Assembly (NCBI GenBank): GCA_902528575.1
Contig: CABZSV010000009.1
Span: 1-32,554, forward strand
Source: an uncultured Pelagibacteraceae bacterium
GTDB taxonomy: Bacteria; Pseudomonadota; Alphaproteobacteria; Pelagibacterales; Pelagibacteraceae
Direction: 5' to 3'
Length of the DNA: 32,554 bases
Below are positions 908-18,102 of this stretch, piece by piece. Made by a program: the position numbers and the translations under genes. The notes beneath the pieces were generated by a model. That model saw only the letters and a program-made list of their open reading frames with translations. It was not told where the DNA came from and did no database searches. Position 1 is the first letter of the stretch, and each line of letters opens with the position of its first letter.

Positions 908-959
908 AAGTGAAAAAATTAAGATTCAATTTAAAAAAGTTAGTAATAAAAGTAACACA

Positions 960-989
960 TTAGCATTTTTGCTTTTTTGAATCTATAAT
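960..989 (+). promoter_or_regulatory. Candidate promoter for the GT11 gene
   Basis: A perfect -10 hexamer TATAAT lies at 984-989, preceded at 18 bp by TTAGCA (960-965), a 4/6 match to the -35 consensus. Transcription would begin around 995-997, only a few bases before the ATG at 1001, giving an almost leaderless message. This also argues against the TTG at 995 as the start. The call is by eye only; AT-rich DNA produces many chance -10 boxes. Confidence 0.35.
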
Positions 990-1000
990 GAACATTGCTA

Positions 1001-1897: not shown

Positions 1898-2856
1898 AAT
1901 CTTTTAAATTTAAAAATTTTGTTAATTTTAATTTTCATTCTTAAAATTAATCTTAATAAATTGTTATATATATAATTTGAATAATAGAAATTTTCCAATT
2001 CGTAGTCTTTAACAACTCTTACATCGAAGGGTAAATATTGACGAAATCCATTTCTAATATATTTTTTACCCTTGTTTATAAATGAGGCTAAATAACTAAA
2101 AGAGCTTTGTGCCATAATTAAATGGTCTGCATTAATCATTAAAGTAAAATCTTCAAAACTTTTATTATTTAGTCTTAAATTAACTTTCGCTAATTTTTCT
2201 AATCTTTTTTTTATTTCATTAAATTGCTTAGTATAACCAGTAGAGCATATGTGAATTTTTACATTTTTCTTATTTAATTTATTTTTTTTGATTATTTTAG
2301 TTATTAAACTAGTGTACCAATTTGTGTAAAATTTAGGATTATTATTTGGAATATTATAATCATAACTAAAATATTCATAAATTATACTTTCATCACCAAA
2401 TATTTCGTCCCCTTTGGAAAAATTCCTTAAATGAAGAACAATATTTTTATATCTACTTTTTCTTAGTAATTTGTGATTACTTTTCCAAAATAATTTTCTA
2501 AAATTTTTTATTATTTTCTTCTGATTTGAAACAGAAATTTTACTAAATTTTTTTAATGATAAATTAAATGGTATTGAAAGAATATATTTTGATTTATTAT
2601 TTAATTCTTTTATACTGGCTATATTTTTAATTATTTGATTTTTTGTTTTGTTTGTATTGTTAAGAAATTGGAAAGCACCTTCCCATTTATTGACATTAAG
2701 TCTTTTCTCATGTCCCCTGAAGTAAAAAAATTTTGATCTGATGAATTTGAAATTATAATATTTTGACATAAGATAAGCCAATAACTCACCTTGTAAAACA
2801 CCACCAATTCCTTGAGTATGACGCTTGTTATAATAGTTGTATGTTAAAATATTCAT
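1894..2856 (-). CDS. Fucosyltransferase-like glycosyltransferase (uncertain family)
   Basis: The protein has a glycine-rich N-terminal GIGGVLQGE, a central VLHLRNFSKGDE resembling the HxRRGD donor motif of GT11/GT23-type fucosyltransferases, and a C-terminal MAQSSFSYLASFI like the serine-rich sugar-nucleotide loop of those families. This suggests a GDP-sugar-dependent GT-B enzyme acting on a surface polysaccharide. I prefer ATG at 2856, giving 320 aa; the frame extends to a TTG at 2898 (334 aa), so the start is uncertain. It is convergent with the GT11 gene and shares TTAA with it as a stop on both strands. The exact family and linkage cannot be named from the sequence alone. Confidence 0.6.
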   Translation of the reverse strand: MNILTYNYYNKRHTQGIGGVLQGELLAYLMSKYYNFKFIRSKFFYFRGHEKRLNVNKWEGAFQFLNNTNKTKNQIIKNIASIKELNNKSKYILSIPFNLSLKKFSKISVSNQKKIIKNFRKLFWKSNHKLLRKSRYKNIVLHLRNFSKGDEIFGDESIIYEYFSYDYNIPNNNPKFYTNWYTSLITKIIKKNKLNKKNVKIHICSTGYTKQFNEIKKRLEKLAKVNLRLNNKSFEDFTLMINADHLIMAQSSFSYLASFINKGKKYIRNGFRQYLPFDVRVVKDYELENFYYSNYIYNNLLRLILRMKIKINKIFKFKRF

Positions 2857-2934
2857 TTTAGAGATTTTGTTGATATATTTTTTTTTTATATTAAACAATT
2901 TCTTTATTTTAATTATTATTTATAAATATCAACA

Positions 2935-4227
2935 ATGAAAATAAGTGTAATTGGCTTGGGCAAGTTAGGTTTTCCAATGGCCAAATTTTTGAAAAAATTT
3001 AACTTTGAGGTCTCTGCTTATGATATAAATCAAAAATTATGTGAGGAATTAAAAATAAATGATAAAACATACTTATCATCAGAGGTAGGAATTAACAAAT
3101 ATAAAAAAAAAATTAAGATATTCAACTCTATTCAGGAATGTTTGTTAAATACAGATATAACCTACGTTACAGTTCCAACGCCAAGTTTAAGAAGTGGAAA
3201 GTTTAGTAATAAATTATTATTAAATGTTCTTGATAATATATGCACTTTTATAAAGGCAAAATCAAAAAAACAGCCTCATATAATAAATATTAACTCAACT
3301 GTCAGCCCTGGTAGTTTTGAAGAAGAATTAATTCCATTTATGGAAAAAAAAGGATTAATAAACGATATTGATTTTTCTTTTATTTATAATCCATATTTTG
3401 TTGCATTAGGAAATGTTTTTAAAAATTTGGAAAGTCCAGATTATATATTGTTAGGTTATTCATCAAATCAAGCGCTTTCTAAAATAAAATTAATTTATAG
3501 AAAAATTTATAAAAAACCTATTTTAAAACCTATGTCTTTGAAAGAGGCAGTACTAGTAAAACTTTTAGTCAACTGCTATATTACCTCTAAAATATCCTTC
3601 ACCAATTTTGTAAAAAAATTGACTGATAAAAATGGTTTGACTTCAGCTGAAGTAGTTTTGGAAGCAATTGGATCAGATAAAAGAATAGGCAACCACTATT
3701 TTAAACAAGGAGGACCTTTTTCGGGACCTTGTTTTCCAAGAGACAACCTTGCTTTGATAAATTTTTGCAAATCAATGAATTTAAATCACTTAATTCCAAA
3801 AACAACGAACAAAATAAACATTAGCACTTATTCAGATATGTTTAACATTTTAAAATTTTTTAAAAGAAATAAATTTAAAAAAATTGGTTTTTTAGGTATT
3901 AGCTATAAGCCAAATACTGATGATATAACTGAAAGCGTAGCACTGAAATTAATGCAAGAGAGTAAAAAACTTGGAATGCGAGTTTTTTATTATGATAATT
4001 ATGTAAATAAAAATATTAAAAGTTTTAAAAGATATAAAAATTTAAATACACTAATTAAGCACGTAGAGATATTATTTATTTCTTATTTAGATAAAAAAAA
4101 TAATAAAATAAACTTTAGAAAGATTTCAAAAACTATAATTTGGGATATATTTGAATTTACAAAAAATAAAAATATTAAAAAATTTTCTAATATTTATCAG
4201 CTTAAGAAATTGCTAAAAGATAAATAA
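2935..4227 (+). CDS. UDP-glucose/GDP-mannose dehydrogenase family protein
   Basis: This family oxidises the C6 hydroxyl of a nucleotide sugar with two NAD+ to give a uronic acid donor. The 430 aa protein shows the N-terminal Rossmann motif GLGKLGFP (7-14), VPTP at 80-83, the catalytic Lys/Asn helix (Lys209, Asn213), and GPFSGPCFPRD with nucleophile Cys266. The C-terminal UDP-binding domain begins with the GFLGISYKPNTDD-type segment. All catalytic elements are present at normal length. Substrate could be UDP-glucose, UDP-N-acetylhexosamine or GDP-mannose. The segment NPYFVALG, where UDP-glucose dehydrogenases usually have NPEFLREG, makes UDP-glucose less certain. It lies among glycosyltransferases, so it probably feeds the surface polysaccharide. 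Confidence 0.88.
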   Translation: MKISVIGLGKLGFPMAKFLKKFNFEVSAYDINQKLCEELKINDKTYLSSEVGINKYKKKIKIFNSIQECLLNTDITYVTVPTPSLRSGKFSNKLLLNVLDNICTFIKAKSKKQPHIININSTVSPGSFEEELIPFMEKKGLINDIDFSFIYNPYFVALGNVFKNLESPDYILLGYSSNQALSKIKLIYRKIYKKPILKPMSLKEAVLVKLLVNCYITSKISFTNFVKKLTDKNGLTSAEVVLEAIGSDKRIGNHYFKQGGPFSGPCFPRDNLALINFCKSMNLNHLIPKTTNKINISTYSDMFNILKFFKRNKFKKIGFLGISYKPNTDDITESVALKLMQESKKLGMRVFYYDNYVNKNIKSFKRYKNLNTLIKHVEILFISYLDKKNNKINFRKISKTIIWDIFEFTKNKNIKKFSNIYQLKKLLKDK

Positions 4228-4230
4228 TAA

Positions 4231-4884
4231 TTAATTTATAGATTTCATTATAAACATATCGTGTTCTATATTAATTGTCATTTCATTTTCGAGAGCAAAA
4301 TTAAATAAATATTCAATTTTTGGGTATCCACTATTTTCTTTAAAATCTCTTACATCATCAATTATAATTACACAATTTTCAAAATTCTTTTTATAATTTT
4401 TAATTAAATTTAACTCTTGAATTATTGGGGTTAATTTATTTCCAGAAAATGTCCCCATTCCAGAGTCATGAGCATCTAAATAAATGGTCACATTTTGATT
4501 TTTTATATTTTTTAATACACCCTCAAGACTATCTTCAGATGTACCATTTATTATTTCAACATTTTTTAATTTGATGAATCTTCTCTTGCTTATTTCATAA
4601 AATTTTTTTGAAGGTTCAATTGTAACACATTTATTAAAATTTTTTGATAATTTCAGAATAGTATCTCCAATTAAAGTACCAGTTTCAATAAATATTGAAT
4701 TAGTTATTAGATGATTTTTAATAATTTTATGTTTTACGAAAGGGGGGCTAGGTGGTTGAAAGTTTCTCCTTATCCAATTTACACTATCCTTGAGATTTAT
4801 ATAAAGCTGAAATATTGTAAGATTTTTAATTAAATATTTAGGATTCATTTTTTTTAAATAACTATGTTTATATTTATTAAGCAT
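4231..4884 (-). CDS. SAM-dependent methyltransferase-like protein
   Basis: The 217 aa protein has a class I methyltransferase-like fold. FIETGTLIGDT is the glycine-containing loop after strand 1, TIEPSK is the acidic end of strand 2 that would bind the ribose of S-adenosylmethionine, and TIYLDAHDSG with a following IIIDDVRDF gives later strands. It resembles the FkbM-like and hydroxylase/methyltransferase group found in polysaccharide clusters. It probably methylates a sugar of the surface glycan, but the acceptor cannot be read from the sequence. It is convergent with the dehydrogenase gene, 3 bp away. It is distinct in sequence from the two FkbM genes near 10 kb. Confidence 0.6.
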   Translation of the reverse strand: MLNKYKHSYLKKMNPKYLIKNLTIFQLYINLKDSVNWIRRNFQPPSPPFVKHKIIKNHLITNSIFIETGTLIGDTILKLSKNFNKCVTIEPSKKFYEISKRRFIKLKNVEIINGTSEDSLEGVLKNIKNQNVTIYLDAHDSGMGTFSGNKLTPIIQELNLIKNYKKNFENCVIIIDDVRDFKENSGYPKIEYLFNFALENEMTINIEHDMFIMKSIN

Positions 4885-4954
4885 AATGATTGTATAAAAA
4901 AAATAATTTTTTATCTATATATAAATTTTTATTTTGTTAAATATTAATAATCTT

Positions 4955-5755
4955 ATGATCAAAACAAACATAGAAAATTTTATCAATTTAAAAAAAATTA
5001 AATCAAATTCACCTTCTTATAAAAATTCAAATCCATTTAATCACATGGTTATTGAAAATTTTTTTGATCTTAAATTTGCAAAAAAATTGGAAAGGGAATT
5101 TTTAAATTATAATTCTGATAAATGGTATAGATATAAAAATGATATAGAGAATAAAAAAGCATTGAATGATTGGAATGTTTTTCCAGAAAAAACATACTTA
5201 CTGTTTGAATATTTAATTTCCAATAAATTTGTGAAATTCTTATCTAAAATTGTAGGTACTAATTTGTTTCCAGATCCGGGTTTGCACGGTGGTGGTTGGC
5301 ATATACATGGAAGAGGTGGCAATTTGAATCCTCATTTAGATTATTCAATACATCCAAAACTTGGGCTACAAAGAAAAATTAACTTAATAATTTATATATC
5401 TAAAAATTTTAAGTCAAATTATGGTGGCCACTTAGGTTTATGGAGCAATGATAGATTATCAAATCAACCTGCAAATTTAATTAAAGAAATTGTTCCATCA
5501 TTTAATAAAGCTATTATTTTTGATACTACACAAAATTCCTGGCATGGTATGACCACAAAGTTAAAACAACCAAACGGCATTTATAGGAAAAGTTTGGCAA
5601 TTTACTATTTATGCAAACCTCAAAGAAATGTAATAAGTCGTCAGAGGGCATTGTTTGCACCAAGAGAAGATCAAAAAAATAATAAAAATGTTCAAAAATT
5701 AATAAAATTGCGATCAAATTTAAAAAAATCACACTTAGCTTATTTTAAGAAATAA
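4955..5755 (+). CDS. 2-oxoglutarate/Fe(II)-dependent oxygenase
   Basis: Such enzymes hydroxylate or oxidise a substrate using 2-oxoglutarate, oxygen and ferrous iron. The facial triad is visible. NPHLDYS supplies His127 and Asp129, NSWHGM supplies the distal His197, and IYRKSLAIYY supplies Arg211 for 2-oxoglutarate binding (numbering from ATG at 4955). The double-stranded beta-helix core lies between them. A TTG at 4934 would add seven residues, but ATG is preferred. It is followed 6 bp later by a GT2 gene in the same direction. The substrate is unknown. In this setting it may modify a glycan or its carrier, which is inference only. Confidence 0.8.
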   Translation: MIKTNIENFINLKKIKSNSPSYKNSNPFNHMVIENFFDLKFAKKLEREFLNYNSDKWYRYKNDIENKKALNDWNVFPEKTYLLFEYLISNKFVKFLSKIVGTNLFPDPGLHGGGWHIHGRGGNLNPHLDYSIHPKLGLQRKINLIIYISKNFKSNYGGHLGLWSNDRLSNQPANLIKEIVPSFNKAIIFDTTQNSWHGMTTKLKQPNGIYRKSLAIYYLCKPQRNVISRQRALFAPREDQKNNKNVQKLIKLRSNLKKSHLAYFKK

Positions 5756-5761
5756 TTATAT

Positions 5762-6676
5762 ATGTTATATGAAACTGTAGCTGTCTTAATGCCCACATAT
5801 AACGGGTCAAAATTTATTAAAGCTCAGATAGAAAGTATAATTAACCAAAAAAAATTTCCGGTTCATTTATATATTTCAGACGATGGATCAAATGACGATA
5901 CATTAATAATTCTAGATGATTATTTTAAAAAATATCCAAATATTTTTAAGAAGTTATATAAAGTAAATTTCAAACATCCTGTCAAAAATTATATTAGTTT
6001 AACCTTAAAGGTTCCAGAGTATAAATATTACGCTTTTGCAGACCAGGATGATGTATGGTTTGAGGATAAGCTGATACATTCAATATCAAAGCTAAATGAA
6101 GGATATTCATTATATGGAGGAAGAGTACAAGTTACTGACGAAAATTTAAAAACCATTGGTTATTCTCCTATATTTGAAAAACCAACAGGTTTCGCAAATG
6201 CAATAGTTCAAAATATTGCTGGAGCAAATACAATGGTTTTTAATCATTCTGCAATGAAAATTTTCAGAAAAATTAAAAATCATCCAATTACATCCATAGA
6301 TTGGTTATTTTATATTTTGGTTACATTTTATGGAAACAAAGTATTTTACGATAAACACCCAAAAATTTTATATAGACAACATTCAAATAATGATCACGGT
6401 ATTGGCAAATCATTTGAAAGCAGGCTGAGTAGATTCCTTTTTTTGATAAAAGGAGGTAACAAGCTTTTTAACGAACTAAATGTTAGTTTACTAAATGAAA
6501 TAGTTGATAACTATGAAAAACAAAACTTAGAAATCCTATCAAATTATAATTATTTAAGGAATAATATGAAATATAAATTATCGTCTTTTAAATTTCTTAA
6601 AAAATCAAAAATATACAGACAAACTTTTCTAGGAAATTTAAACTTAAATTTTTCAATTTTTTTTGGGTTGGAATGA
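5762..6676 (+). CDS. GT2 family glycosyltransferase (rhamnosyltransferase-like)
   Basis: The protein is a GT-A-fold inverting glycosyltransferase of 304 aa. It starts with VAVLMPTYNG, has the nucleotide-binding DDGS (Asp40-Asp41), and ADQDDVW (Asp94-Asp97), the metal-binding motif typical of rhamnosyltransferase-like GT2 enzymes such as the WbbL and RfbF group. The nearby dTDP-rhamnose operon makes rhamnose a plausible donor. Only the catalytic domain and a short helical tail are present, with no membrane segment, so it would act on the cytoplasmic face of the membrane on a lipid-linked acceptor. It follows the oxygenase gene by 6 bp and is probably cotranscribed. Confidence 0.83.
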   Translation: MLYETVAVLMPTYNGSKFIKAQIESIINQKKFPVHLYISDDGSNDDTLIILDDYFKKYPNIFKKLYKVNFKHPVKNYISLTLKVPEYKYYAFADQDDVWFEDKLIHSISKLNEGYSLYGGRVQVTDENLKTIGYSPIFEKPTGFANAIVQNIAGANTMVFNHSAMKIFRKIKNHPITSIDWLFYILVTFYGNKVFYDKHPKILYRQHSNNDHGIGKSFESRLSRFLFLIKGGNKLFNELNVSLLNEIVDNYEKQNLEILSNYNYLRNNMKYKLSSFKFLKKSKIYRQTFLGNLNLNFSIFFGLE

Positions 6677-6697
6677 TTGAAAATTAAAAATTAGCAT

Positions 6698-7411
6698 TTA
6701 AAAATTTTTTAAAATATTTTTTAGATTTGAACTATCAAGACTTGTATCATAACCCATCTTTTTTTTCTGCTTTAAGGAAATTTTTTTTCTTAATATATTT
6801 TTATTCTCTTTAATAGCGTACTCATAAGGCGTTTGTATCTTTCCACCCATATTAATTATTCCTTTCTTATTGACTAATTTAAGTATGATTTTTGCAGCGT
6901 CATCATTACTTAAAAAACTTGTTACATAGTTTGTGAATGCATACTTATGTGGAAAAGGTTTTTTTGTTATGCATGCTCTGATTATCAAACTATCTTTTAA
7001 AAACTTTACTGCACATTCTCCTCCAAGCTTAGACCAACCGTAGAGATTAATAGGATTTAAGCTTTCTGCCTCTTTGTAATTCCCTTTTTTACCTGGATAA
7101 ACAAAATTAGTTGAAATATAAATTAATTTTGTTTTTGATAAATAACAAGCTTTTACCACATTTGAAGTTCCTATAATATTAACATTTATACTTTCAATTG
7201 GATCTTTTTCATGTTGTGTCATTGGTGAACTCAAAGCTGCCGTATGAATAAAATAATTTGGTTTAAATTTTTTTATAACTTTTATTACATTCTTATAATT
7301 TGTTATATCTAGAGTTTTTTTGTTAAGGGCATAAATTTTATATTTTTTATTAAAGAAAAAAATTTTTTTAGCTAACTCTCCTTCACCTCCCGATAGAATA
7401 ATTCTTCTCAT
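6698..7411 (-). CDS. rmlD: dTDP-4-dehydrorhamnose reductase-like protein (RmlD, short form)
   Basis: RmlD reduces dTDP-4-dehydro-L-rhamnose to dTDP-L-rhamnose. The protein has the extended SDR pattern: an N-terminal nucleotide-binding loop GGEGELA, HTAAL, the catalytic STNFVYPG (Thr101), and YGWSK (Tyr124, Lys128). At 237 aa it is about 50 residues shorter than typical RmlD, and the third glycine of the usual GxxGxxG loop is Ala14. Its place as last gene of rmlB-rmlA-rmlC-rmlD, with a 4 bp ATGA overlap with rmlC, supports the call. Without that context it would be called only an NAD(P)-dependent sugar-nucleotide reductase. Confidence 0.8.
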   Translation of the reverse strand: MRRIILSGGEGELAKKIFFFNKKYKIYALNKKTLDITNYKNVIKVIKKFKPNYFIHTAALSSPMTQHEKDPIESINVNIIGTSNVVKACYLSKTKLIYISTNFVYPGKKGNYKEAESLNPINLYGWSKLGGECAVKFLKDSLIIRACITKKPFPHKYAFTNYVTSFLSNDDAAKIILKLVNKKGIINMGGKIQTPYEYAIKENKNILRKKISLKQKKKMGYDTSLDSSNLKNILKNF

Positions 7412-7890
7412 CTTATTAATAATTTTTTAAATTTTTTATCTCTTTTTGATAGAATAGGTTTCTTTATTTTCCAATTTAATTTTAAGGTTTCATCATTCCA
7501 TATAATCCCTTTTTCTAATTTTTTATTGTATCTAGTCGAAAGTTTATAGAGAATTATGTTTTCATTTCCTTTACATAAATACCCGTGGGCGAAACCCTTA
7601 GGTATAAATAATCCTTCACCTTTTTTTAAATTAAATTTAAAGATTTTTATAGGCAATTTTCTTTTAAGTTGAATACAAAAATCTAATATTTTTCCCTTAA
7701 GAACAATTACTAATTTATTTTCATAATTTTTTTTGTAGTGAATTCCTCTAAGAACATTTTTTTTCGAAAATGTTAATATTTCATTCTTAAATTTATTTCC
7801 TGGCAATCTATTTAATTCAAATAGCACACCTCTTTGATCTTTGAATTGTTTAATTTTAAATTTTCTTGGTGTTAAAATTTTATTGATCAT
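7408..7890 (-). CDS. rmlC: dTDP-4-dehydrorhamnose 3,5-epimerase (RmlC)
   Basis: RmlC epimerises dTDP-4-dehydro-6-deoxyglucose at C3 and C5, the third step to dTDP-L-rhamnose. The cupin protein shows DQRGVLFE near the N-terminus, LRGIHY with the catalytic His51, and FIPKGFAHGYL (His102 region), all typical of RmlC. At 160 aa it is slightly shorter than the usual 180 or so. The gene starts at ATG 7890, 15 bp after rmlA, and ends with a TGA that overlaps the rmlD start. It is soluble and presumably dimeric, as the family is. Confidence 0.9.
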   Translation of the reverse strand: MINKILTPRKFKIKQFKDQRGVLFELNRLPGNKFKNEILTFSKKNVLRGIHYKKNYENKLVIVLKGKILDFCIQLKRKLPIKIFKFNLKKGEGLFIPKGFAHGYLCKGNENIILYKLSTRYNKKLEKGIIWNDETLKLNWKIKKPILSKRDKKFKKLLIR

Positions 7891-7905
7891 TTAAATATTT
7901 TATTT

Positions 7906-8775
7906 TTAAATTAAATTTTTTAAATAATTAGAATAAGATGAATTTTTAAACTCTTTTATTCTTTTATTTATATTTACTTTACTTATCCATTTTTTGTTCA
8001 AAGCTATCTCTTCCAAACATCCTATCTGATAATTTTGTCTTTTTTCAATGTTTTTAACAAATAAACTTGATTGTATTAAATCATTAAAAGTACCCATATC
8101 TAGCCATGTACTTCCACGTGGCAATTTAAATAATTTTAATTTTTTATTTTGTTTGTAAATATTAATTATATCTACAATCTCTGTTTCGTTCCTTTTTGAT
8201 TTTTTTAATTTTTTGACGTAATCAAAAACTTTATTGTTAAAAAGATAAAGACCAGTTATCACAAGATTAGATTTTGTTTTTGAGGGTTTTTCAAGAATTT
8301 TTGAGACTTTCCCTTTTTTATCTAATTCCACAACACCAAAATTACTTGGATTTTTTGAAGGATATAGAAATATTGTTCCACCATTTATTTTATTTTTAAA
8401 AAAATTTTGAAAAATTGTTGATAAATTTGATCCATAAAAAAAATTATCTCCAAGAATGAGAGCAAAATTTTCTTTTTTAACAAAATCTTTGGCAAACCGT
8501 AATGCGTTTGGAATTCCATCTGCCAAGCTTTGTTCCTTAAAACTTATATTAATACCAAGATTTTCATAACTACCTATTGATTGTTCAAAATATTTTTTTT
8601 GATTTTTTCCAGTAACAATTAAAATATCCTTAATACCTGCCAACATTAAAATAGAAATTGGGTAATAGAACATAGGCTTATTATATACAGGGACCAAGTG
8701 TTTATTAATTGATTTTGTTACCGGATACAATCTTGAACCTGTGCCACCACAAAGAATAACACCTTTTGAAATCAT
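7906..8775 (-). CDS. rmlA: Glucose-1-phosphate thymidylyltransferase (RmlA)
   Basis: RmlA joins dTTP and glucose-1-phosphate to give dTDP-glucose, the first committed step of the rhamnose pathway. The 289 aa protein starts with KGVILCGGTGSRLYPVT, the nucleotidyltransferase signature loop, followed by HLVPVYNKPMFYYP. It also has ALILGDNFFYG (metal-binding Asp), GVVELDKKGKV, and GSTWLDMGTFNDL near the C-terminus. Length is normal. The ATG at 8775 overlaps the rmlB stop by 4 bp, so the two are translationally coupled. Confidence 0.94.
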   Translation of the reverse strand: MISKGVILCGGTGSRLYPVTKSINKHLVPVYNKPMFYYPISILMLAGIKDILIVTGKNQKKYFEQSIGSYENLGINISFKEQSLADGIPNALRFAKDFVKKENFALILGDNFFYGSNLSTIFQNFFKNKINGGTIFLYPSKNPSNFGVVELDKKGKVSKILEKPSKTKSNLVITGLYLFNNKVFDYVKKLKKSKRNETEIVDIINIYKQNKKLKLFKLPRGSTWLDMGTFNDLIQSSLFVKNIEKRQNYQIGCLEEIALNKKWISKVNINKRIKEFKNSSYSNYLKNLI

Positions 8776-9788
8776 ACACTACCTTGTCTCTTTCCATTAT
8801 ATTTCTTTTTAGAATTGCGTAACCATTTTTTATTATCTAAATACCAAGATATTGTTTCCTCTAAACCTGAAACAATAGTTTTTTTCGGCTTCCAATTTAC
8901 TTTATTATAAAACTTTTTTGAATTTATCGCGTATCGAAAGTCATGACCTGGCCTGTCTTTCACATATAAAATTTTACTTTTTGATTTAATTTTAAATTTA
9001 TTTTTTAATATTCTAATAATCAATTTAGTTAAAAAAATATTCTTATATCTTTTACCAGAGCCAATATTATATCTTTCATTCTTAATATTAGATTTGAATG
9101 CTTTTTCAATTGCAATACAAGTGTCCTTTACATAGAGCCACTCTCTTATGTTTAAACCATTTCCGTATATTGGTATGTTTTTATTATTTAAATAATTCGT
9201 AATTATTTTGGGTATAAACTTCTCAATAAATTGAAAAGGACCGTAATTATTTGAAATATGGAAAATAGTCATTGGCAAGTTATATGTTTCAAAAAAAGAG
9301 TTAGCGACCAAATCTGAACTTCCTTTGGAGGCTGCATATGGGGAGCTTGGATTATAAATACTCTTCTCACTAAAAATTTTATTGTTGTTACTTCCATAAA
9401 CCTCATCAGTTGAAAAATGAAATATTTTTATTTTTTTATTATATTTATAGTATCCTCTTAGCACTTTAAATAAATTTAAAGATGATGAGATGTTGTTAAT
9501 AATGAAAAATTTAGGTTCATCAATAGATCTATCTACATGACTTTCTGCAGCTAAATTTAAAATTATATCAGGTTTTATTTTAAAAATTGTTTTTTTTAAT
9601 TTACTTTCATTAAGAAGATTTTGCTTAAAAAAATAATAATTTTTATTTATTTTTTTTTTAAATTTTTCAGGTGTTGATACTTTTGATATTTTGTCAATAT
9701 TAAAAACTTTATAGTTTTTTTTAACTAAATGAAAAATTAAGTTAGTTCCAATAAACCCTGAACCACCTGTTATAAGAATTTTTTTCAT
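8772..9788 (-). CDS. rmlB: dTDP-glucose 4,6-dehydratase (RmlB)
   Basis: RmlB converts dTDP-glucose to dTDP-4-dehydro-6-deoxyglucose with a bound NAD+. The extended SDR protein has TGGSGFIGTNL (8-18), AAESHVDRSI (about 80-89), the signature STDEVYG with Thr127, Asp128 and Glu129, and YAASK with Tyr151 and Lys155. The 338 aa length is normal. It is the first gene of the rmlBACD set on the minus strand and lies 32 bp after the upstream FkbM gene. The whole rhamnose set is therefore probably part of one transcript starting near 11290. Confidence 0.94.
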   Translation of the reverse strand: MKKILITGGSGFIGTNLIFHLVKKNYKVFNIDKISKVSTPEKFKKKINKNYYFFKQNLLNESKLKKTIFKIKPDIILNLAAESHVDRSIDEPKFFIINNISSSLNLFKVLRGYYKYNKKIKIFHFSTDEVYGSNNNKIFSEKSIYNPSSPYAASKGSSDLVANSFFETYNLPMTIFHISNNYGPFQFIEKFIPKIITNYLNNKNIPIYGNGLNIREWLYVKDTCIAIEKAFKSNIKNERYNIGSGKRYKNIFLTKLIIRILKNKFKIKSKSKILYVKDRPGHDFRYAINSKKFYNKVNWKPKKTIVSGLEETISWYLDNKKWLRNSKKKYNGKRQGSV

Positions 9789-9820
9789 AAACTTAAAATA
9801 ATTTTATCATACAAATTAAG

Positions 9821-10510
9821 TTATTCTTTGGTATTTTCAAATAAGTAATCTCCATAATCTGGTAAATCACTTATATTATAATTAGATAATCTTAATACAT
9901 ACCTAAACCCTTTTTTTTCTAAAAATAACTTTAATCTTTTAAAATTTGCCGTTTCAATTAAAAAGTATTTAATTTTATTTTCACTAAAATCAATACCATC
10001 CAGAACTTCGAACTCAGCACCCTCAACATCTAATGAAAAAAAATCAATTTTTTTGTTTTTACTGACAATTTTGTTTAATATATTTTTTATTGTTAGTGCT
10101 TCTACATTCACACTTTTTTTATTTTTATAATTAGTTTCAAAATTTTTAATTTTTGCTGTTAGAGAGTCTTTGCTATATATAATTTCAATATTTTTTTTTT
10201 TGTAATTTTTAGATACCGCAGCAACATTAAAAAAAAAATTTTTATCAGATCTATTTTTTTTTAATTCCTTGTAAATATGAGGCAAAGGTTCGATTAAAAC
10301 ACCCTTCCAATTTAATGTTTTTTCATAATACCAAGTCGTAGATTGATTTACACCATCATTTGCACCTATATCTATAAAAAAACCATTTTTAAAATTAATA
10401 AATTTTAACATTTGTTTATCTAAATTATTATATCCATTAAATTTTCTAAATTTTTTAATAAATGTTTTAAACTTAACAGGAAAGAGTGATTTAATTTTAA
10501 TTAGCATCAT
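9821..10510 (-). CDS. FkbM family methyltransferase
   Basis: FkbM proteins O-methylate sugars and polyketides using S-adenosylmethionine. This 229 aa protein has the family signature FIDIGANDGVNQS, then WKGVLIEPLP (acidic ribose-binding residue), and FFSLDVEGAEFEVLDGI, the conserved late block. The start is ATG at 10510 (or the adjacent ATG at 10507). It overlaps the upstream FkbM gene by 14 bp, indicating coupling. The coding strand contains a run of 11 A (10191-10201 on the complementary strand), a possible slippage site. It lies directly upstream of rmlB, so rhamnose or a neighbouring sugar may be the methyl acceptor. Confidence 0.83.
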   Translation of the reverse strand: MMLIKIKSLFPVKFKTFIKKFRKFNGYNNLDKQMLKFINFKNGFFIDIGANDGVNQSTTWYYEKTLNWKGVLIEPLPHIYKELKKNRSDKNFFFNVAAVSKNYKKKNIEIIYSKDSLTAKIKNFETNYKNKKSVNVEALTIKNILNKIVSKNKKIDFFSLDVEGAEFEVLDGIDFSENKIKYFLIETANFKRLKLFLEKKGFRYVLRLSNYNISDLPDYGDYLFENTKE

Positions 10511-11195
10511 TTATTAATAAAATATCATAAGCAGCAATATTACTTAATATTGAGACTGAATAAATTCTTTTCATTTTAATTATTTTGAATTTATATTTTT
10601 TTAACAAACTATATATTTTATCAATTTTAATTTTAATATTATCTTTTCTACCAAAAACTTCTATTTGAATAACTTTTATTTTTTTTAAAGTGTTTTTAGC
10701 ACCTAGAATTATTTCAAGCTCTGATCCTTCAACATCAATTTTAAGTATATCAATTCTTTTTATTTTTTTTCTTTTACAAAAACTATCAATGGTTTCACAA
10801 TTTACTATAATTTTTTTGAATATTTTTCCAAATTTAAAAAACAAAATCTTTCTTGAAAGGTTCCATAAAAAATCATTTTTAGTAATGTTGCTCATAGAGG
10901 AACCCGAATGTTCTAATAAAGTATTGAAATAAAACTTTTTTTTTATGTTTTTTGATCCTAGGGCAATATTAAAGATATTAAATTTTTCATTTTTCAAATT
11001 TGGATTTGGATCAAACAAATAAAATTTTGATTTTCTATTTATCTTAGTTTTCAACTTTTTTGAAAAATTTCCAACATAGCAACCAACATCAAATATAATT
11101 AACCTTTCACTTTTTTTAAATTGTCTTACTATTAAGTTTGTGAAGTCATTTTGTGTAAAAAGATCAAAGTAAAAATATAATTTATTTTTTCTCAT
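10497..11195 (-). CDS. FkbM family methyltransferase (second copy)
   Basis: This is a 232 aa FkbM-type methyltransferase with LIIFDVGCYVGNFS as the S-adenosylmethionine loop, KFYLFDPNP as the strand-2 acidic region, and RIDILKIDVEGSELEIILGA as the conserved late block. It is related to the next gene in overall plan but diverged in detail, so the pair looks like old relatives with separate acceptors rather than a recent duplication. It is the first gene downstream of a divergent promoter region and starts at ATG 11195. Confidence 0.83.
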   Translation of the reverse strand: MRKNKLYFYFDLFTQNDFTNLIVRQFKKSERLIIFDVGCYVGNFSKKLKTKINRKSKFYLFDPNPNLKNEKFNIFNIALGSKNIKKKFYFNTLLEHSGSSMSNITKNDFLWNLSRKILFFKFGKIFKKIIVNCETIDSFCKRKKIKRIDILKIDVEGSELEIILGAKNTLKKIKVIQIEVFGRKDNIKIKIDKIYSLLKKYKFKIIKMKRIYSVSILSNIAAYDILLINDAN

Positions 11196-11293: not shown

Positions 11294-11299
11294 ATTATA
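11294..11299 (-). promoter_or_regulatory. Candidate -10 element for the minus-strand FkbM-rmlBACD unit
   Basis: The minus strand reads a perfect TATAAT here, about 100 bp upstream of the ATG at 11195. No good -35 hexamer is seen at 16 to 18 bp. On the plus strand the overlapping arm gives TATAAG (11303-11308), 16 bp after TTGTCC (11281-11286), which could serve the epimerase gene starting at 11333. The two form an inverted repeat. Confidence 0.3.
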
Positions 11300-11332
11300 C
11301 TGTATAAGAATATAAAACTTTTTAAAATTAAT

Positions 11333-12328
11333 ATGAAATATAAATACTTAGTCTGTGGTGCAGGTGGTTTTATTGGAGGATATATTACCAAAAAATTATT
11401 AGATGAAGGTCATGAGGTAGTTTGTGCCGATATAAAGCCCTTAGAGTATTGGTTTCAAAATTTTCCAGAGGCAAAAAATTTTTGTCTAGATTTAAAGGAA
11501 TTTGAAAATTGTATGAAAGTAAGCCAAGGTGTTGATTATGTTTTTAACATGGCTTGTAATATGGGGGGCATGGGTTTTATTGAAAATAATAAGGCTGAAT
11601 GTATGCTTTCAGTACTCATTAACACAAACCTTTTAAGATCATGCGTTGAAAATAATATTAAAAGATATTTTTTTTCTTCAAGTGCATGTGTTTATAATGC
11701 ATCAAAACAAAAAGATGTTTTTATACCAGCCTTAAAAGAAAGTGATGCGTATCCTGCAGATCCCGAAGATGGTTATGGTTGGGAAAAATTATTTAGCGAA
11801 AGAATGTGTAGACATTTTACTGAAGATTTTAATTTGGATACTAGAGTTTTAAGATATCATAATGTTTATGGTCCCCTTGGAACTTTTGATGGAGGAAGAG
11901 AAAAAGCACCGGCAGCATTATGTAGAAAAATAATAACTGCAAAATTAAATAATGAGAAAAAAATAGATGTTTGGGGTGATGGTGAGCAAACAAGAAGTTT
12001 CATGTATATAGATGATTGTGTTAGTGGAACATTTAAGATTTTTGAAGGCACCTCATCAGAAGTCTATAATTTAGGAAGTAACGAACAAGTTTCAATAAAT
12101 CAAATGATTGAATTAATTGAAGAAATTAGCGGATATAAAGTAGAAAAAAATTATCAGCTGGACAAGCCGAAAGGAGTAAGAGGTCGATCAAGCGATAATG
12201 AAAAAATTAAAAAATTATTAAGTTGGGAACCTTCTATTAGCTTAAAAACTGGCCTTGAAACAACTTATAGCTGGATATTTAATCAAATAAAATCAGGAGA
12301 AAATACCCAAAAGTTTTCAAAATTTTAA
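11333..12328 (+). CDS. GDP-mannose 3,5-epimerase-like NAD-dependent epimerase
   Basis: GDP-mannose 3,5-epimerase (GME), best known from plants, converts GDP-D-mannose to GDP-L-galactose and GDP-L-gulose. The 331 aa extended SDR protein starts with CGAGGFIGGY and carries GME-typical blocks: NMACNMGGMGFIENN, SSSACVYNASKQ, LKESDAYPADPEDGYGWEKL, and GGREKAPAALCRK. Residues matching the catalytic set described for the Arabidopsis enzyme (Cys145, Tyr174, Lys178, Lys217) are Cys119, Tyr148, Lys152 and Lys191, with the same offset of 26 in every case. QTRSFMYIDDCV follows as expected. The product is probably an L-sugar donor for the surface glycan. The family call is strong; the exact product is inferred. 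The gene lies 43 bp upstream of the 5S rRNA on the same strand. Confidence 0.85.
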   Translation: MKYKYLVCGAGGFIGGYITKKLLDEGHEVVCADIKPLEYWFQNFPEAKNFCLDLKEFENCMKVSQGVDYVFNMACNMGGMGFIENNKAECMLSVLINTNLLRSCVENNIKRYFFSSSACVYNASKQKDVFIPALKESDAYPADPEDGYGWEKLFSERMCRHFTEDFNLDTRVLRYHNVYGPLGTFDGGREKAPAALCRKIITAKLNNEKKIDVWGDGEQTRSFMYIDDCVSGTFKIFEGTSSEVYNLGSNEQVSINQMIELIEEISGYKVEKNYQLDKPKGVRGRSSDNEKIKKLLSWEPSISLKTGLETTYSWIFNQIKSGENTQKFSKF

Positions 12329-12371
12329 ATTAGTCTATTTACTTTTAAAAATTATAAGCTATTTATTTATC

Positions 12372-12487
12372 GCCTGGTGATTATTGCGAGAAGGTTATAC
12401 CCGATCCCATTCCGAACTCGGAAGTCAAGTTTTTCAGCGCCGATGGTACTTTGTCTTAAGACATGGAAGAGTAGGTCATTGCCAGGC
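12372..12487 (+). rRNA. rrf: 5S ribosomal RNA (orphan)
   Basis: This is a 116-nt gene closed by a perfect terminal helix, GCCTGG at the 5' end with CCAGGC at the 3' end. The conserved core CCCGATCCCATTCCGAACTC and the following GCGCCGATGGTACT are typical of bacterial 5S. There is no 23S upstream: the preceding 12 kb are surface-glycan genes. A TATAAG hexamer (12353-12358) sits about 13 bp before the 5' end and may be its own -10; no convincing -35 is seen. Alternatively it is cotranscribed with the epimerase gene 43 bp upstream. No U-rich terminator follows on this strand. Confidence 0.95.
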
Positions 12488-12489
12488 AT

Positions 12490-13209
12490 TTAATCAGCAA
12501 GTTTTACCTCCCCTCTAATAAAATATTTTATAATCTTAAAAGAAACCATTGTTCGTTTTAAATATGTTTTTGGGTCAAAAAGAAGTCTTACTAACCATCC
12601 TAGGTAATATTTATCTACAACTCTATTAATTGGAGCTTGTTCCCCTGTCATAAAAGCTATTGCTGCACCAGTACAAATTATGTTTATCTTTTTTCTGATT
12701 TTTACTTTTATATATTGTGCCAAAATCTCTTGCACACCACCTCCAAGATTAATGATAATGTAAGATGGATTGTAATTATTTATAAATTTAATTAATTTTG
12801 AATCTTCTAATTTTTTTTTGTAAATTGGTGCAGTATAAGAGGAAAAATTTTTAAAGTTGTTTTTTTTTAATAATTTTTCATTGAGTAATTTTGATTTTTC
12901 AGATGGATTTATTAATAAAATTTTACTTTTTTTTTCCACCTTGTTTAAAAATAAATTTAAAAACAAATATCCAGATAATTTTTTTACTTTGATCTTTTTT
13001 AAAATCCTTAACAGTATACAGAAAAAACCACTGTCTAATATTGCAATGTCTGAATTTCTTAGTGCTTTGTAGTATTCATGTTTCTTTTCAAGATCAGCTA
13101 ATGCCGAGGCAGCAGGTGCAACTAATATTTGAGATCTTAAAAATTTATCATAAATTTCCTCATTTGAACCAGAATAAAAAGTAATATCTTTTAATTTTAT
13201 TTTTATCAT
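12490..13209 (-). CDS. WecG/TagA/CpsF family (GT26) glycosyltransferase
   Basis: GT26 enzymes transfer an N-acetylmannosamine, N-acetylmannosaminuronic acid or related residue to a lipid-linked sugar at the cytoplasmic membrane face. The 239 aa protein follows the family plan: SALADLEKK and AILDSGFF replace the usual nucleotide-sugar region, ILLINPSEK lies in the centre, NLGGGVQEI stands where GxPxQE is usual, and GAAIAFMTGEQAPINRVV then YLGWLVRLLFDP matches the RAPxW and LEWLxRL signatures. The stop codon is 2 bp from the end of the convergent 5S gene. A role in starting or early elongation of the surface glycan is likely; the sugar is unknown. Confidence 0.8.
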   Translation of the reverse strand: MIKIKLKDITFYSGSNEEIYDKFLRSQILVAPAASALADLEKKHEYYKALRNSDIAILDSGFFCILLRILKKIKVKKLSGYLFLNLFLNKVEKKSKILLINPSEKSKLLNEKLLKKNNFKNFSSYTAPIYKKKLEDSKLIKFINNYNPSYIIINLGGGVQEILAQYIKVKIRKKINIICTGAAIAFMTGEQAPINRVVDKYYLGWLVRLLFDPKTYLKRTMVSFKIIKYFIRGEVKLAD

Positions 13210-13369
13210 TGTTTTTTTTGTTATTTTTTATTATTGAATCATTTAAAATTCCATAAAATTCAGTAAGTAATTAATTTTCCTTTACTTTTTTTATTTTAAA
13301 GATATGAAATGTTCCTAAATATTTTGCTGATAACAATTAAAAATAAACAAAATTTTAAGATTTAACCAA
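13210..13369. other. Intergenic gap between divergent surface genes
   Basis: This 160-base AT-rich gap separates the GT26 gene and the GalE-like gene, which are divergent, so it should hold both promoters. I see TTGCTG (13324-13329) as a possible -35 but no good -10 at the right distance, and no RNA-like or repeated structure. Confidence 0.4.
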
Positions 13370-14248
13370 ATGAAAAATTTTATTGTTGTTACAGGTGGAG
13401 CTGGTTTCATAGGCTCTAATCTCATAGAATATTTTGTAAATAATACTAAATTTAAAATAATTAGTGTAGATAATTATTCATCAGGTTCAAAAAAAAATCA
13501 CATCAAGAATAATAGAGTCAAGTATTTAAGAGGAGATACCAAAAATATAAATAAAATTCTTAGTCGGTACAAAAATAAAATAAATGCAATTTTTCATTTT
13601 GGTGAATTTGCAAGAATTTATGAAAGTTTTAAGAATTTTAGAAAATGTTTTCAATCTAATACAGTTGGATCAAAAGCTGTTATTGAGTTTTGTTTGAATA
13701 ATAAAATAAAGCTAATATATTCAGCTACATCTGCCACTTTGGGAAATTCAGGTAAAGATAAACATTTATCTCCGTATGCTTTTACAAAATCAAAAAATTT
13801 AGAACTTCTAGAGAATTTAAAAAAATGGTTTAAGTTCAGATTTGAGATAATATATTTTTATAATGTTTACGGTCCTCGTCATATCAAAACTGGTAGTATG
13901 GCAACAGTAATTGGTATTTTTGAGCATTTGTATAAAAAAAAACAACCATTAACAGTTGTAAAACCAGGAACTCAAACAAGAAGTTTTACCCATGTTCATG
14001 ACACAGTTAAAATATGTATTGATGCTTGGAAATTAGATAAATCTAGACATTATAGTATTTCTCATAAAAAATCTTATTCAATTTTAGAGGTGGCCAAAAT
14101 GTTTGGTTCTAAATTACGCTATCTAAAAGCACGAGAAGGAGAAAGATTTACATCGTCTTTGCCTACATTGTCGCAAAAGAATACTATTATAAGAAAGTTT
14201 GGAAAAATAAATTTGAAAGATTACGTATCTTCGTTTATTAATGGCTAA
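13370..14248 (+). CDS. NAD-dependent epimerase/dehydratase (UDP-sugar 4-epimerase-like)
   Basis: This is a 292 aa extended SDR. It has [15 protein letters not shown] (8-22), the acidic cofactor-binding VDNYSSG (33-39), [11 protein letters not shown] at about 77-87, Ser118-Ala-Thr in the catalytic serine position, and YAFTK with Tyr136 and Lys140. FYNVYGPR and [13 protein letters not shown] are the nucleotide-sugar-binding blocks. The overall layout matches UDP-glucose or UDP-N-acetylglucosamine 4-epimerases, slightly shorter than the usual 310 to 330. It is probably another surface-sugar gene lying beyond the 5S. It ends 5 bp before rpmJ, so it could read into the core operon. Confidence 0.82.
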
Positions 14249-14253
14249 AAAAA

Positions 14254-14379
14254 ATGAAAATTAAAAGCTCACTTAAGTCGATTAAAAAAAGAGATTTAAA
14301 CTCTAAACTTGTTAGAAGGAGAGGACGAGTTTACGTAATTAATAAAACTAATCCAAAATTTAAAGCACGACAAAAGTAA
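14254..14379 (+). CDS. rpmJ: 50S ribosomal protein bL36 (zinc-free form)
   Basis: A 41 aa ORF beginning [14 protein letters not shown] and ending KFKARQK, with [15 protein letters not shown] in the middle, is the alphaproteobacterial bL36. It has no cysteine, so it is the form that does not bind zinc. bL36 is the smallest large-subunit protein and binds 23S rRNA. The gene begins 5 bp after the epimerase stop and ends 5 bp before the next tiny gene. This marks the return from the variable island to the core genome. Confidence 0.93.
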
Positions 14380-14384
14380 ATTTT

Positions 14385-14495
14385 ATGGATAATGAAAACC
14401 ATAAAAATACTTGGAACAATTTTACAAAGTTTGTGCTTTGGGGAACGATTGCCGTAATATCTGTTTTAGTATTAATGGCAATATTTCTTTTATAA
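14385..14495 (+). CDS. Small aa3-type cytochrome c oxidase subunit IV-like protein
   Basis: This is a 36 aa ORF with a short polar N-terminus (HKNTWNNF) and a single membrane helix of about 20 residues. The pattern xxTWxxFxK followed by one helix is that of the alphaproteobacterial aa3 oxidase subunit IV family, which is commonly found just upstream of the transhydrogenase genes. In that family it is a small accessory helix of the terminal oxidase in the inner membrane. The assignment rests on motif and position. The oxidase genes proper are not in the window. Confidence 0.75.
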   Translation: MDNENHKNTWNNFTKFVLWGTIAVISVLVLMAIFLL

Positions 14496-14515
14496 TATCT
14501 TGATATATTTTTATT

Positions 14516-15604
14516 ATGAATTTAGCTTCAATTATAGAAAATCGAGATACTGAGAAGCGAATAGCAATTACACCTGAAATTGCAAAAAAATATATCAGCT
14601 TAGGATTTAATTTATCATTGCCAAATAATTATGGAACCCACTTAGGTTTCAATGACGAAGATTACAAACATTTAGGAGTTAATTTCTTAGATAACGAAGA
14701 AGAAATAGTTAAAAATTCTGATATTATTATTCAATTAGGATTACCTGTTGAGAAAAAATTATCATTTTTCAAAGAAAATCAAACCTTGATTGGTTCATTA
14801 AACGCTTTTGTAAATAAAGAAAAATTAGAGAATTTAAAATCAAAGAAAATAAATTGTTTTTCTCTAGAGTTGCTACCAAGAATTACCAGAGCTCAATCAA
14901 TGGATATTTTATCATCACAAGCTAATCTTGCTGGATACAAAGCTGTAATAGAAGCTTTCCAAGTTTATGAAAGAGCAATTCCGATGATGATGACAGCAGC
15001 TGGAACAATTCCTGCAGCAAAAGTATTAGTGGTTGGAGCTGGAGTTGCTGGATTACAAGCTATTGCAACAGCTAAAAGAATGGGAGCTGTAGTATTTGCA
15101 ACAGACGTAAGGATGGCCTCTAAAGAACAAGTTGAGAGTTTAGGCGGAAAATTTCTTACAGTTGAAGGATCTGAGAATTTAGAAACTGAAGGTGGTTATG
15201 CAAAAGAAGCATCAGATGAATTTAAAAAAAAGCAAGAAGAATTACTTTCAGAAACATTAAAAAAAATTGATATAATAATTTGTACTGCTTTAATCCCAGG
15301 TAGAGAGGCTCCAAAGATAATTAAAGAGGAAATGTTTAAAAATTTACAACCAGGCTCAGTTATTTATGACTTAGCTGCAGTTCAAGGAGGAAATACTGTA
15401 TTTACTGAAGTTGATAAAATTTACGAAAAAAATGGTGTTAAAATTTTGGGTGAGGCAAATATATTAAATAAATTACCCGTATCTGCTTCTAATTTATATG
15501 CAAAAAATGTATTTAATTTTATTTCTAATTTATATGATAAAGAAAATAAGAAAATAAATATTAATTTAGAGGATGAAATAATAGAGAAAACACTAATTAA
15601 ATAG
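14516..15604 (+). CDS. pntAA: NAD(P) transhydrogenase subunit alpha, part 1 (NAD-binding)
   Basis: PntAA is the NAD(H)-binding peripheral domain (domain I) of the proton-translocating transhydrogenase, which makes NADPH from NADH using the proton gradient. The 362 aa protein has [14 protein letters not shown] at the N-terminus, [16 protein letters not shown], and the Rossmann loop [12 protein letters not shown] followed by FATDVR. ELLPRIT and [12 protein letters not shown] are also typical. The ATG at 14516 lies 20 bp after the subunit IV gene. A TATAAT (14491-14496) precedes it but lacks a clear -35. It heads the order pntAA-pntAB-pntB, split as in most alphaproteobacteria. Confidence 0.95.
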
Positions 15605-15608
15605 TATT

Positions 15609-15917
15609 ATGGAAATAGATCCTTTTATATTCAGATTAAGTATTTTTATATTATCAATATTTGTTGGCTACTATGTTGTATGGAGTGTAACACCTTCTTT
15701 ACATACTCCTTTAATGTCAGTTACGAATGCAATCTCCTCAGTAATTATTGTAGGAGCGATAATTGCAGCTTTGTCAGGAAGTGATGGAGCTGTTTTTTCA
15801 TCGTCTAGTATTTATGGATTTTTAGCAATTATTTTAGCAGCTGTTAATATTTTTGGTGGATTTTTAGTTACCCAAAGAATGTTAGCTATGTATAAAAAAA
15901 AGAAAAAGGATAAATAA
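15609..15917 (+). CDS. pntAB: NAD(P) transhydrogenase subunit alpha, part 2 (membrane)
   Basis: PntAB is a 102 aa membrane piece of domain II that forms part of the proton channel with PntB. The sequence has three or four hydrophobic segments, with the family motif [18 protein letters not shown] near residues 28-45 and [19 protein letters not shown] at the end. It lies 4 bp after pntAA and 3 bp before pntB, so the three are cotranscribed and probably translationally coupled. Confidence 0.95.
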
Positions 15918-15920
15918 TTA

Positions 15921-17315
15921 ATGTCTGCAAATCTATCTGCAAGTCTATATCTAGTATCTGGGGTATTATTTATCTTAGCTTTAAGAGGTTTGTCATCTCC
16001 CGAAACTTCAAGACAAGGAAATTTATTTGGTATAATTGGAATGATTATTGCCGTGGCAGTAACATTTCTTTCTGTTGATAATTTTACCTCTGGTTTTATT
16101 TATGTTCTAATATTTTTGGCTATTGGAGGTAGCATTGGAGCATTTATAGCATATCGTATCCCAATGACTGCTATGCCAGAATTAGTTGCAGGCTTTCATA
16201 GTTTAGTTGGTCTAGCAGCAGTATTTGTTGCTATATCAGCATTTAAAAACCCTGCAGCATTTAATCTTGGCTCTCCAGGAAATATTAAACTTGCAAGCTT
16301 AATTGAAATGGCGATAGGAGCATCCGTTGGTGCAATCACTTTTTCTGGTTCTGTTATAGCATTTTTAAAATTACAAGGAATAATGTCCGGTGCACCTATA
16401 ACTTTTAAAGGTCAGCACTTATTGAACGCTTTATTGTTAATATTAATTGTAATATTAACAATTTATCTTTGCTCAACTCAATCATCTAATTTATTTTGGA
16501 TTTTAATAGCCGTTTCTTTTTTAATTGGTTTTTTAATTATTATTCCTATTGGTGGTGCAGATATGCCAGTTGTAATTTCAATGTTGAATTCATATTCAGG
16601 CTGGGCTGCAGCTGGAATTGGATTTACATTAGAAAACACAGCCTTAATTATCACTGGTGCGTTGGTTGGATCATCTGGTGCAATACTTTCATATATAATG
16701 TGTAAAGGAATGAATAGATCATTCTTTAATGTTATTTTAGGTGGTTTTGGAGGTACAGAGCAAACCTCTGGAAGTCAAAACAAAGAACAAAGACCAGTAA
16801 AAAGTGGTAATGCAGATGATGCAGCTTTTTTAATGAAAAATGCATCTTCAGTTATAATTGTCCCAGGGTATGGAATGGCAGTAGCACAAGCTCAGCATGC
16901 TCTAAGAGAAATGGTAGATACGTTAAAGAAGAATGATATCAAAGTATCATACGCTATACATCCAGTTGCAGGACGTATGCCTGGTCATATGAATGTTTTA
17001 TTAGCTGAAGCAAATGTTCCATATGATGAAGTTTTTGAATTGGAAGAAATAAATAACGATTTTGCAAATGCAGATGTAGCATTTGTAATCGGCGCAAATG
17101 ATGTGACAAATCCTGTTGCAAAAACTGATCCACAAAGTCCAATCTATGGAATGCCAGTTTTAGATGTTGAAAAATGCAAATCTGTTTTGTTTGTAAAAAG
17201 AAGCTTATCACCTGGATATGCTGGAATTGATAATGATCTTTTTTATAAAGAAAATACTTTAATGTTGTTTGCAGACGCTAAAAAAATGACTGAAGATATT
17301 ACAAAAAACTTATAG
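15921..17315 (+). CDS. pntB: NAD(P) transhydrogenase subunit beta
   Basis: PntB carries the rest of membrane domain II and the NADP(H)-binding domain III. The 464 aa protein has about nine hydrophobic segments in its first 270 residues, including GSIGAFIAYRIPMTAMPELV and GGADMPVVISMLNSYSGWA, both conserved channel motifs. The C-terminal soluble part has VPGYGMAVAQAQH, HPVAGRMPGHMNVLLAEA, and VIGANDVTNPVAK for NADP binding. Length is normal. In SAR11 cells this enzyme would be a source of NADPH for biosynthesis. The transaldolase gene follows 5 bp later. Confidence 0.96.
   Translation: MSANLSASLYLVSGVLFILALRGLSSPETSRQGNLFGIIGMIIAVAVTFLSVDNFTSGFIYVLIFLAIGGSIGAFIAYRIPMTAMPELVAGFHSLVGLAAVFVAISAFKNPAAFNLGSPGNIKLASLIEMAIGASVGAITFSGSVIAFLKLQGIMSGAPITFKGQHLLNALLLILIVILTIYLCSTQSSNLFWILIAVSFLIGFLIIIPIGGADMPVVISMLNSYSGWAAAGIGFTLENTALIITGALVGSSGAILSYIMCKGMNRSFFNVILGGFGGTEQTSGSQNKEQRPVKSGNADDAAFLMKNASSVIIVPGYGMAVAQAQHALREMVDTLKKNDIKVSYAIHPVAGRMPGHMNVLLAEANVPYDEVFELEEINNDFANADVAFVIGANDVTNPVAKTDPQSPIYGMPVLDVEKCKSVLFVKRSLSPGYAGIDNDLFYKENTLMLFADAKKMTEDITKNL

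Positions 17316-18025: not shown

Positions 18026-18102
<77 letters not shown>

Follow-up and report, generated by a model that had tools for sequence, protein, structure and literature searches.

The ribosomal RNA (rRNA) genes of Pelagibacter HTCC1062, a member of SAR11, are split around hypervariable region 2 (HVR2), which lies between the 16S-23S pair and the 5S gene (PMC2217521). The same layout was described in other SAR11 (PMC3815206) and in LD12 (PMC6018831, PMC4053759), it is reported in PMC7318151, and 806 such O-chain clusters have been recovered with it (PMC11898729). A joined rRNA operon is present in SAR11 subclades IV and V (PMC7318151) and likewise in HIMB59, whose corresponding region was found to be without similarity to HVR2 (PMC3815206). 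Rearrangements within SAR11 include a 5S translocation in the Arctic SAR11 uisw_092 and a relocation of the island in Ib.4 (PMC12421898, PMC11898729). The split itself and the identity of the 5S gene as right border of HVR2 are thus already known, having been described since 2007. Here we analysed a contig of 32,554 bases (the window; contig C9 in its entirety) from an uncultured member of the Pelagibacteraceae, in which a 5S gene stands among polysaccharide genes. To the known split we add a near-fixed 5S promoter, a linkage between 5S and rpmJ, and evidence for a move of the 5S gene.

The window belongs to a 980,317-base assembly, which is split into 57 contigs and 75% complete. Its 5S gene matched Rfam RF00001 over model positions 1-120 of 120 with 90.8 bits (E 1.7e-18; gathering score 38), far beyond chance. 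When the window was scanned with Rfam at gathering thresholds no 16S or 23S gene was found, and hence none in the 12 kb upstream of the 5S, and Pfam families identified polysaccharide genes on both sides of it. These observations agree with the first-pass annotation of this DNA, which had noted the complete 5S gene, the missing 23S and the flanking polysaccharide genes, and had cited the HTCC1062 layout now traced to the literature. A second, 23S-linked 5S gene was looked for, and the copy in the window was the only one turned up in the 75% complete assembly. The single 23S gene found is part of a 16S-tRNA-Ile-tRNA-Ala-23S cluster on contig C10 (31,967 bases). A UDP-galactopyranose mutase gene starts 82 bp past this 23S, followed by two glycosyltransferase genes, an epimerase gene and a carbamoyltransferase gene (five of five frames scanned), and no 5S is present in the remaining 6 kb of C10 up to the contig end. 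Polysaccharide genes therefore follow the 23S and precede a sole 5S that is unlinked to it, which identifies the window as the right end of HVR2 in another SAR11 genome, as the first-pass annotation had proposed. Both rRNA genes are on the strand read as plus, and they are at least 18 kb apart if the ends of C9 and C10 face each other. It counts against this placement that the two contigs are unjoined and the middle of the island is unassembled, the left end of the island in this genome being inferred.

The same arrangement was seen elsewhere in the family. Homologues of the window's PntA at 92-95% identity belong to Pelagibacteraceae or Ca. Pelagibacter ubique records. Among 147 family genomes 108 had a 5S gene, and 106 of these had exactly one. 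Sixteen genomes had a 5S and a 23S match on a shared contig; in all of them the 5S lay downstream of the 23S on the same strand, at a distance of 20.9-88.2 kb (median 46.0 kb; three of the pairs, G002, G010 and G029, are based on partial 23S matches, and G045 was excluded because its 23S match covered only 71 nt at 75%). Absence of a 23S match is uninformative, because at least one public genome (G005, L280) has Ns in place of part of its 23S. Neighbourhoods were analysed in 181 5S-bearing loci, made up of 74 of the 80 named loci, one locus from each of 106 genomes, and the window itself. The genome loci exclude G010, which had 8% contamination and a truncated 5S, and also a weak second 5S in G048; in all six named loci without a 5S, the locus starts less than 1 kb from pntA. 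Neighbouring genes were taken from a simple open reading frame caller, so that orientation counts are approximate. The window resembles the described HVR2/O-chain cluster in having 16S-23S on the left, a sole 5S on the right and polysaccharide genes between, and it differs in having island-type genes on both sides of the 5S, an abutting convergent gene, and rpmJ 1766 nt away. The single 5S would stand 20-90 kb downstream of 16S-23S at the right border of HVR2. Our explanation of the locus as a whole, in which we have good confidence, is that this border carries a 5S gene with a promoter of its own, that island genes have overrun it in this strain, and that the 5S came from the rRNA (rrn) operon.

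Upstream of the 5S we found a conserved motif of sigma70 type. In the 173 distinct upstream regions of relatives (the window's excluded), with positions counted from Rfam position 1 of the 5S, a TTTACA box occupies −35 to −30 and TATAAa occupies −12 to −7; the form in the family is TTTACA or TTGACA, 16-17 nt, and TATAAa. An untrained scan with the E. coli consensus placed 143 of the 173 at −10 to −5, with 19.6 expected and 19.6 in shuffled sequences. Only 0.1% of 873 random 80-mers from the same loci reached the lower quartile of the 5S promoter set. Seven operon-linked 5S genes (six from a sister family and one from another family) scored −9.0 to 1.2 versus a median of 15.7 for the orphan 5S genes, and as judged by these scores they are without the promoter motif. 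Two fitted models agreed with the placement, each with a drawback that weighs against the promoter reading. One put the last base of the −10 box of the best site in 80 nt at −8/−7 in 165 and at −9 to −6 in 171 of 174 regions (one region being too short for 80-nt scans), having been fitted to the same sequences that it scored. The other, trained on 97 sequences (named loci and the window's genus), put 75 of 75 sequences from other genera at −11 to −5, but because its named loci were unsorted by genus, some overlap between training and test groups is possible. Moreover, two genus groups, g6 (0.2 of 5) and g13 (0 of 1), fail the untrained scan. A general promoter scan of 11200-14600 gave 27 matches versus 22.4, near chance, and the case for a promoter therefore rests on conservation.

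A −10 box in such a position starts RNA, at the usual spacing, at about −2 to +1. The closing helix predicted for the 5S begins at this same place (it pairs 12372 with 12487 in the window). The mature 5S in the window probably ends at about 12371 and 12488, and position −1 is G in 132 of the 173 upstream regions. The predicted 5S fold was no better than shuffles (z −0.81) and was not used as evidence. The position of the motif suggests a free-standing 5S that would be transcribed from its own sigma70-type promoter, with RNA polymerase starting no more than one or two bases from the mature 5′ end. If this is true, the 5S needs no 5′ trimming.

The first-pass annotation had offered two sources for the 5S RNA, its own promoter or read-through from the epimerase gene upstream. 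Across the family the conserved, near-fixed motif supports the former. Of the 173 loci with a called upstream neighbour, 41 have it on the opposite strand (17 of 74 named loci, 24 of 99 genomes), and promoter scores are independent of the strand of the upstream gene (130 same-strand, 39 opposite, p 0.44), which rules out read-through as the general source of 5S. For the copy in the window the in-register site, TTTACT-16 nt-TATTTA, is weak. Its score of 7.49 is the best in its 80 nt; against its use, only 5.2% of the 173 relatives score below it, 6.4% of shuffled sequences reach this value, and the untrained scan was ambiguous. The −10 candidate named earlier, TATAAG, is indeed present at 12353, 7 nt upstream of the TATTTA box. 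As a promoter element it was rejected for its position outside the register of the relatives and for the lack of a good −35 partner (2.55 versus the median of 15.7).

The 5S of this strain could alternatively be trimmed from read-through of the epimerase transcript, the promoter-like motif being unused. The epimerase gene is on the same strand and ends 44 nt upstream, the window's promoter is weak, and homologues of this epimerase (64-76% identity) lie directly upstream of the 5S in several genomes and loci (G223, G380, G461, G508, G521, L035, L049, L057 and L197). We nevertheless consider this source doubtful. Five relatives with the same epimerase-5S junction (L222, L223, L224, L226 and L227) have in-register promoters scoring 12.5-16.9, and the cellular demand for rRNA far exceeds the demand for an epimerase mRNA. 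A contribution of read-through is possible. The 5S promoter of this strain would have drifted to a weak form, from which its 5S would probably be transcribed, perhaps aided by read-through of the epimerase gene. The first-pass annotation further concluded that 5S supply is uncoupled from 23S, a proposal that is suggested by the gene layout.

Downstream, the 5S is linked to rpmJ, which encodes ribosomal protein bL36. In all 180 loci other than the window rpmJ lies downstream of the 5S on the same strand. The gap is 7-27 nt in 120 of them and wider in the other 60; in 53 of these it measures 850-1045 nt, which is the length of one epimerase gene. The gene next after the 5S in the 181 loci is rpmJ in 120, a co-directional gene in 59, and an opposite-strand gene in the window; one locus (L113) has no frame of at least 100 amino acids. 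A separated rpmJ rarely has a comparable promoter of its own: in a scan that covered the 80 nt upstream of rpmJ, one of 61 (window included) scored as high as the lower quartile of the 5S set. Because, in addition, 7-27 nt hardly accommodates a hairpin terminator, we infer that in most relatives the 5S transcript reads into rpmJ. The layout predicts that transcription of the 5S starts independently, at the mature 5′ end, and that the 5S shares a transcript with the only bL36 gene; rpmJ is single copy in each of the 38 genomes, out of 41, that gave a match (the window's genome included). Such a 5S-bL36 operon, if true, ties one ribosomal RNA to one ribosomal protein. In the window a convergent WecG-family gene and then an epimerase gene lie between the 5S and rpmJ; island genes would here have spread past the 5S and separated the two. 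In a study of the pntA RNA motif the metagenomic gene annotated 5′ of the motif was most often 5S or rmlB, and HTCC1062 has the order rpmJ-motif-pntA (PMC2704228); the part of that paper available to us draws no 5S-rpmJ link. Both rpmJ and the pntA RNA, which were missing from the earlier list of features, mark the core flank to the right of the island.

To place the split in evolution we compared the family with its sister family in the same order. Seven of 12 sister-family genomes had both 23S and 5S, with the 5S 90-97 bp past the 23S match; the other five gave neither. Four of the seven were checked with Rfam and have a full 16S-23S-5S operon. The sister family thus resembles SAR11 subclades IV and V in having a single joined operon and may be one of them. 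One genome of another family also has the 23S-5S link, so the linked state is likely ancestral. In the two sister-family genomes with rpmJ on the contig of the operon, about 54 kb lie between the 5S and rpmJ. Ten frames of this stretch were scanned in G542, giving eight sugar or polysaccharide families, one asparagine synthase and one frame without a match, and several frames of the stretch in G532 match the window's island proteins. On the left, both genomes carry homologues of all 11 of the C10 frames nearest the 16S; the order is kept, with some additional genes between them. On the right, the flank reads tRNA-Val(GAC), a small frame, rpmJ, two genes and the pntA trio, the last in the same place and 50-74% identical. 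Whereas HVR2 and the HIMB59 region were reported to be dissimilar (PMC3815206), the sister-family island analysed here shares the flanks of HVR2.

Operon, island and right flank are therefore in the same place in both families, and it is the 5S that changed ends. Of 106 genomes in the window's family, 38, from six genera (0 of 26 in the window's genus), have tRNA-Val(GAC) at most 150 nt to the left of the 5S. Set beside the sister order tRNA-Val-frame-rpmJ, the order tRNA-Val-5S-rpmJ gives the arrival site. The 5S would have left the rrn operon, crossed an existing island and landed between tRNA-Val(GAC) and rpmJ. The comparison of gene orders thus suggests that the 5S probably moved across the island, rather than being cut off by an insertion. 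The moves in uisw_092 and Ib.4 show that 5S and island can part within SAR11 (PMC12421898, PMC11898729); those are at strain or clade level, and the move proposed here is at the base of the family. A literature search, limited to open-licence papers, found no statement of a 5S move across the island. Two points weigh against the move. The sister-family island and rpmJ are on one contig in only two genomes, and a promoter shared by descent between the sister-family rpmJ and the 5S found no support: for an origin of the 5S promoter from one between tRNA-Val and rpmJ, the trained model gave −2.1 to 4.8 for five of five. A search for a 5S remnant past the 23S, in 20 stretches of 0.13-1.5 kb each, gave none at E up to 10.

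In the classical view the operon was cut by insertion of the polysaccharide island between 23S and 5S, and the 5S stayed with its downstream genes. The layout within the family is by itself compatible with this, and PMC3815206 speaks of 'an insertion separating'. We think an insertion unlikely, since the sister family has the island between the same left flank (11 of 11 C10 frames) and the same right flank (tRNA-Val-rpmJ-pntA), yet its 5S adjoins 23S. The tRNA-Val(GAC) left of the 5S in 38 of 106 genomes is also on the wrong side for an insertion into 23S-5S-tRNA-Val-rpmJ. To the more detailed proposition we give about even chances: a 5S jump over the island to the tRNA-Val/rpmJ site at the base of the family, a promoter at the mature 5′ end that makes 5′ trimming unnecessary, a 5S-bL36 operon, and an island border pinned by an essential RNA gene and overrun in this strain. 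SAR11 cells rank with the most abundant of the sea, and the family genomes analysed here show one 5S each. The sister-family comparison alters the usual account of the operon split and the idea of what fixes the border of their most variable region.

An assembly artefact, either amplification chimera or misassembly, might have put the 5S among polysaccharide genes; the assembly is fragmented (57 contigs, 75% complete), and an inverted second 5S in L096 resembles such an artefact. It is very improbable here, given that 180 other loci have rpmJ after the 5S on the same strand, that 11200-14500 has no long near-perfect inverted copy (the longest listed being 32 nt at 75%), and that G525/L289 also has a WecG homologue between 5S and rpmJ. 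Equally remote is a non-functional remnant with a linked 5S in the missing quarter of this incomplete genome, as the match is full length with a normal score (75.7-101 bits for full-length 5S of relatives), no 5S lies within 6 kb after the only 23S found, and exactly one 5S is present in 106 of 108 family genomes with a 5S.

Table 1. Features of the window around the 5S rRNA gene and the right border of the island.
Feature	Position	Strand	Evidence or remark
Right-hand part of polysaccharide (HVR2/O-chain) island	1..11195	.	Pfam scans; runs off contig
NAD-dependent nucleotide-sugar epimerase, 331 aa	11333..12328	+	PF01370 4.8e-41; ends 44 nt upstream of 5S
TTTACT, probable −35 box	12338..12343	+	register conserved among relatives; composition and fitted model
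TATAAG, −10 candidate of the first-pass annotation	12353..12358	+	out of register; score 2.55 with best partner TAGTCT
TATTTA, probable −10 box, weak	12360..12365	+	in register; score 7.49
5S rRNA gene	12373..12487	+	Rfam 90.8 bits; only copy found in assembly
WecG/TagA/CpsF-family glycosyltransferase, convergent	12490..13209	-	PF03808 1.1e-17; stop codon 2 nt past 5S
Second NAD-dependent epimerase	13370..14248	+	PF01370 2.2e-31
rpmJ (ribosomal protein bL36)	14254..14379	+	PF00444; only copy found
pntA RNA motif (RF01810)	14381..14442	+	83 bits, gathering score 54
pntA and two following genes, which we take to be transhydrogenase genes; core genes right of island	14516..17315	+	PF05222/PF01262 for 14516-15604

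The island part of the window (Table 1) contains genes for glycosyltransferases, UDP-glucose/GDP-mannose dehydrogenase, a 2OG-Fe(II) oxygenase and FkbM methyltransferases together with rmlA/B/C/D-like genes. Left of 11200, 10 of 13 frames scanned had a Pfam match and three had none. G+C per kb is 19-26% up to 11 kb versus 25-34% from 14 kb onward. Homologues of the second epimerase (63-69% identity) sit between 5S and rpmJ in L049, L057, L197, L228, L229 and L230. The WecG homologue in G525/L289 (51%) occurs there in a different order, which argues that the arrangement in the window is island variation and no isolated oddity.

No intrinsic terminator was found after the window's 5S. The only terminator-like site in 11200-14600, at 12170-12154, is on the strand of the WecG-type gene (one is expected by chance). 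None lies between this gene and the 5S, and a WecG-type transcript might run antisense through the 5S. In L223, L224 and L226 (G380, G508 and G521), which have the epimerase-5S junction in common, no rpmJ was seen in the approximately 1.5 kb fetched past the 5S; other island genes may follow the 5S there. In genus group g5 (L143-L145, L152, L161 and L164) a co-directional gene separates 5S from rpmJ in six of six loci, and the stretches fetched showed no PntA homologue past the 5S. L096 has two 5S copies (1119-1233 and 7404-7518) with identical upstream sequence, inverted within 8.6 kb, probably an amplification chimera.

At the other end of the island, 20 stretches (L253-L272) and C10 (L004 from 5952) share a near-identical short sequence after the 23S (ATGCACTGAAAAA...) and then diverge; the divergence point marks the left island border to about 20 nt. 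On the right, the pntA RNA motif begins 2 nt past the rpmJ stop codon, and the core beyond the pntA trio includes tRNA-Met(CAT) at 18026-18102 and a TrcR-type regulator (PF06242) at 18367-18948.

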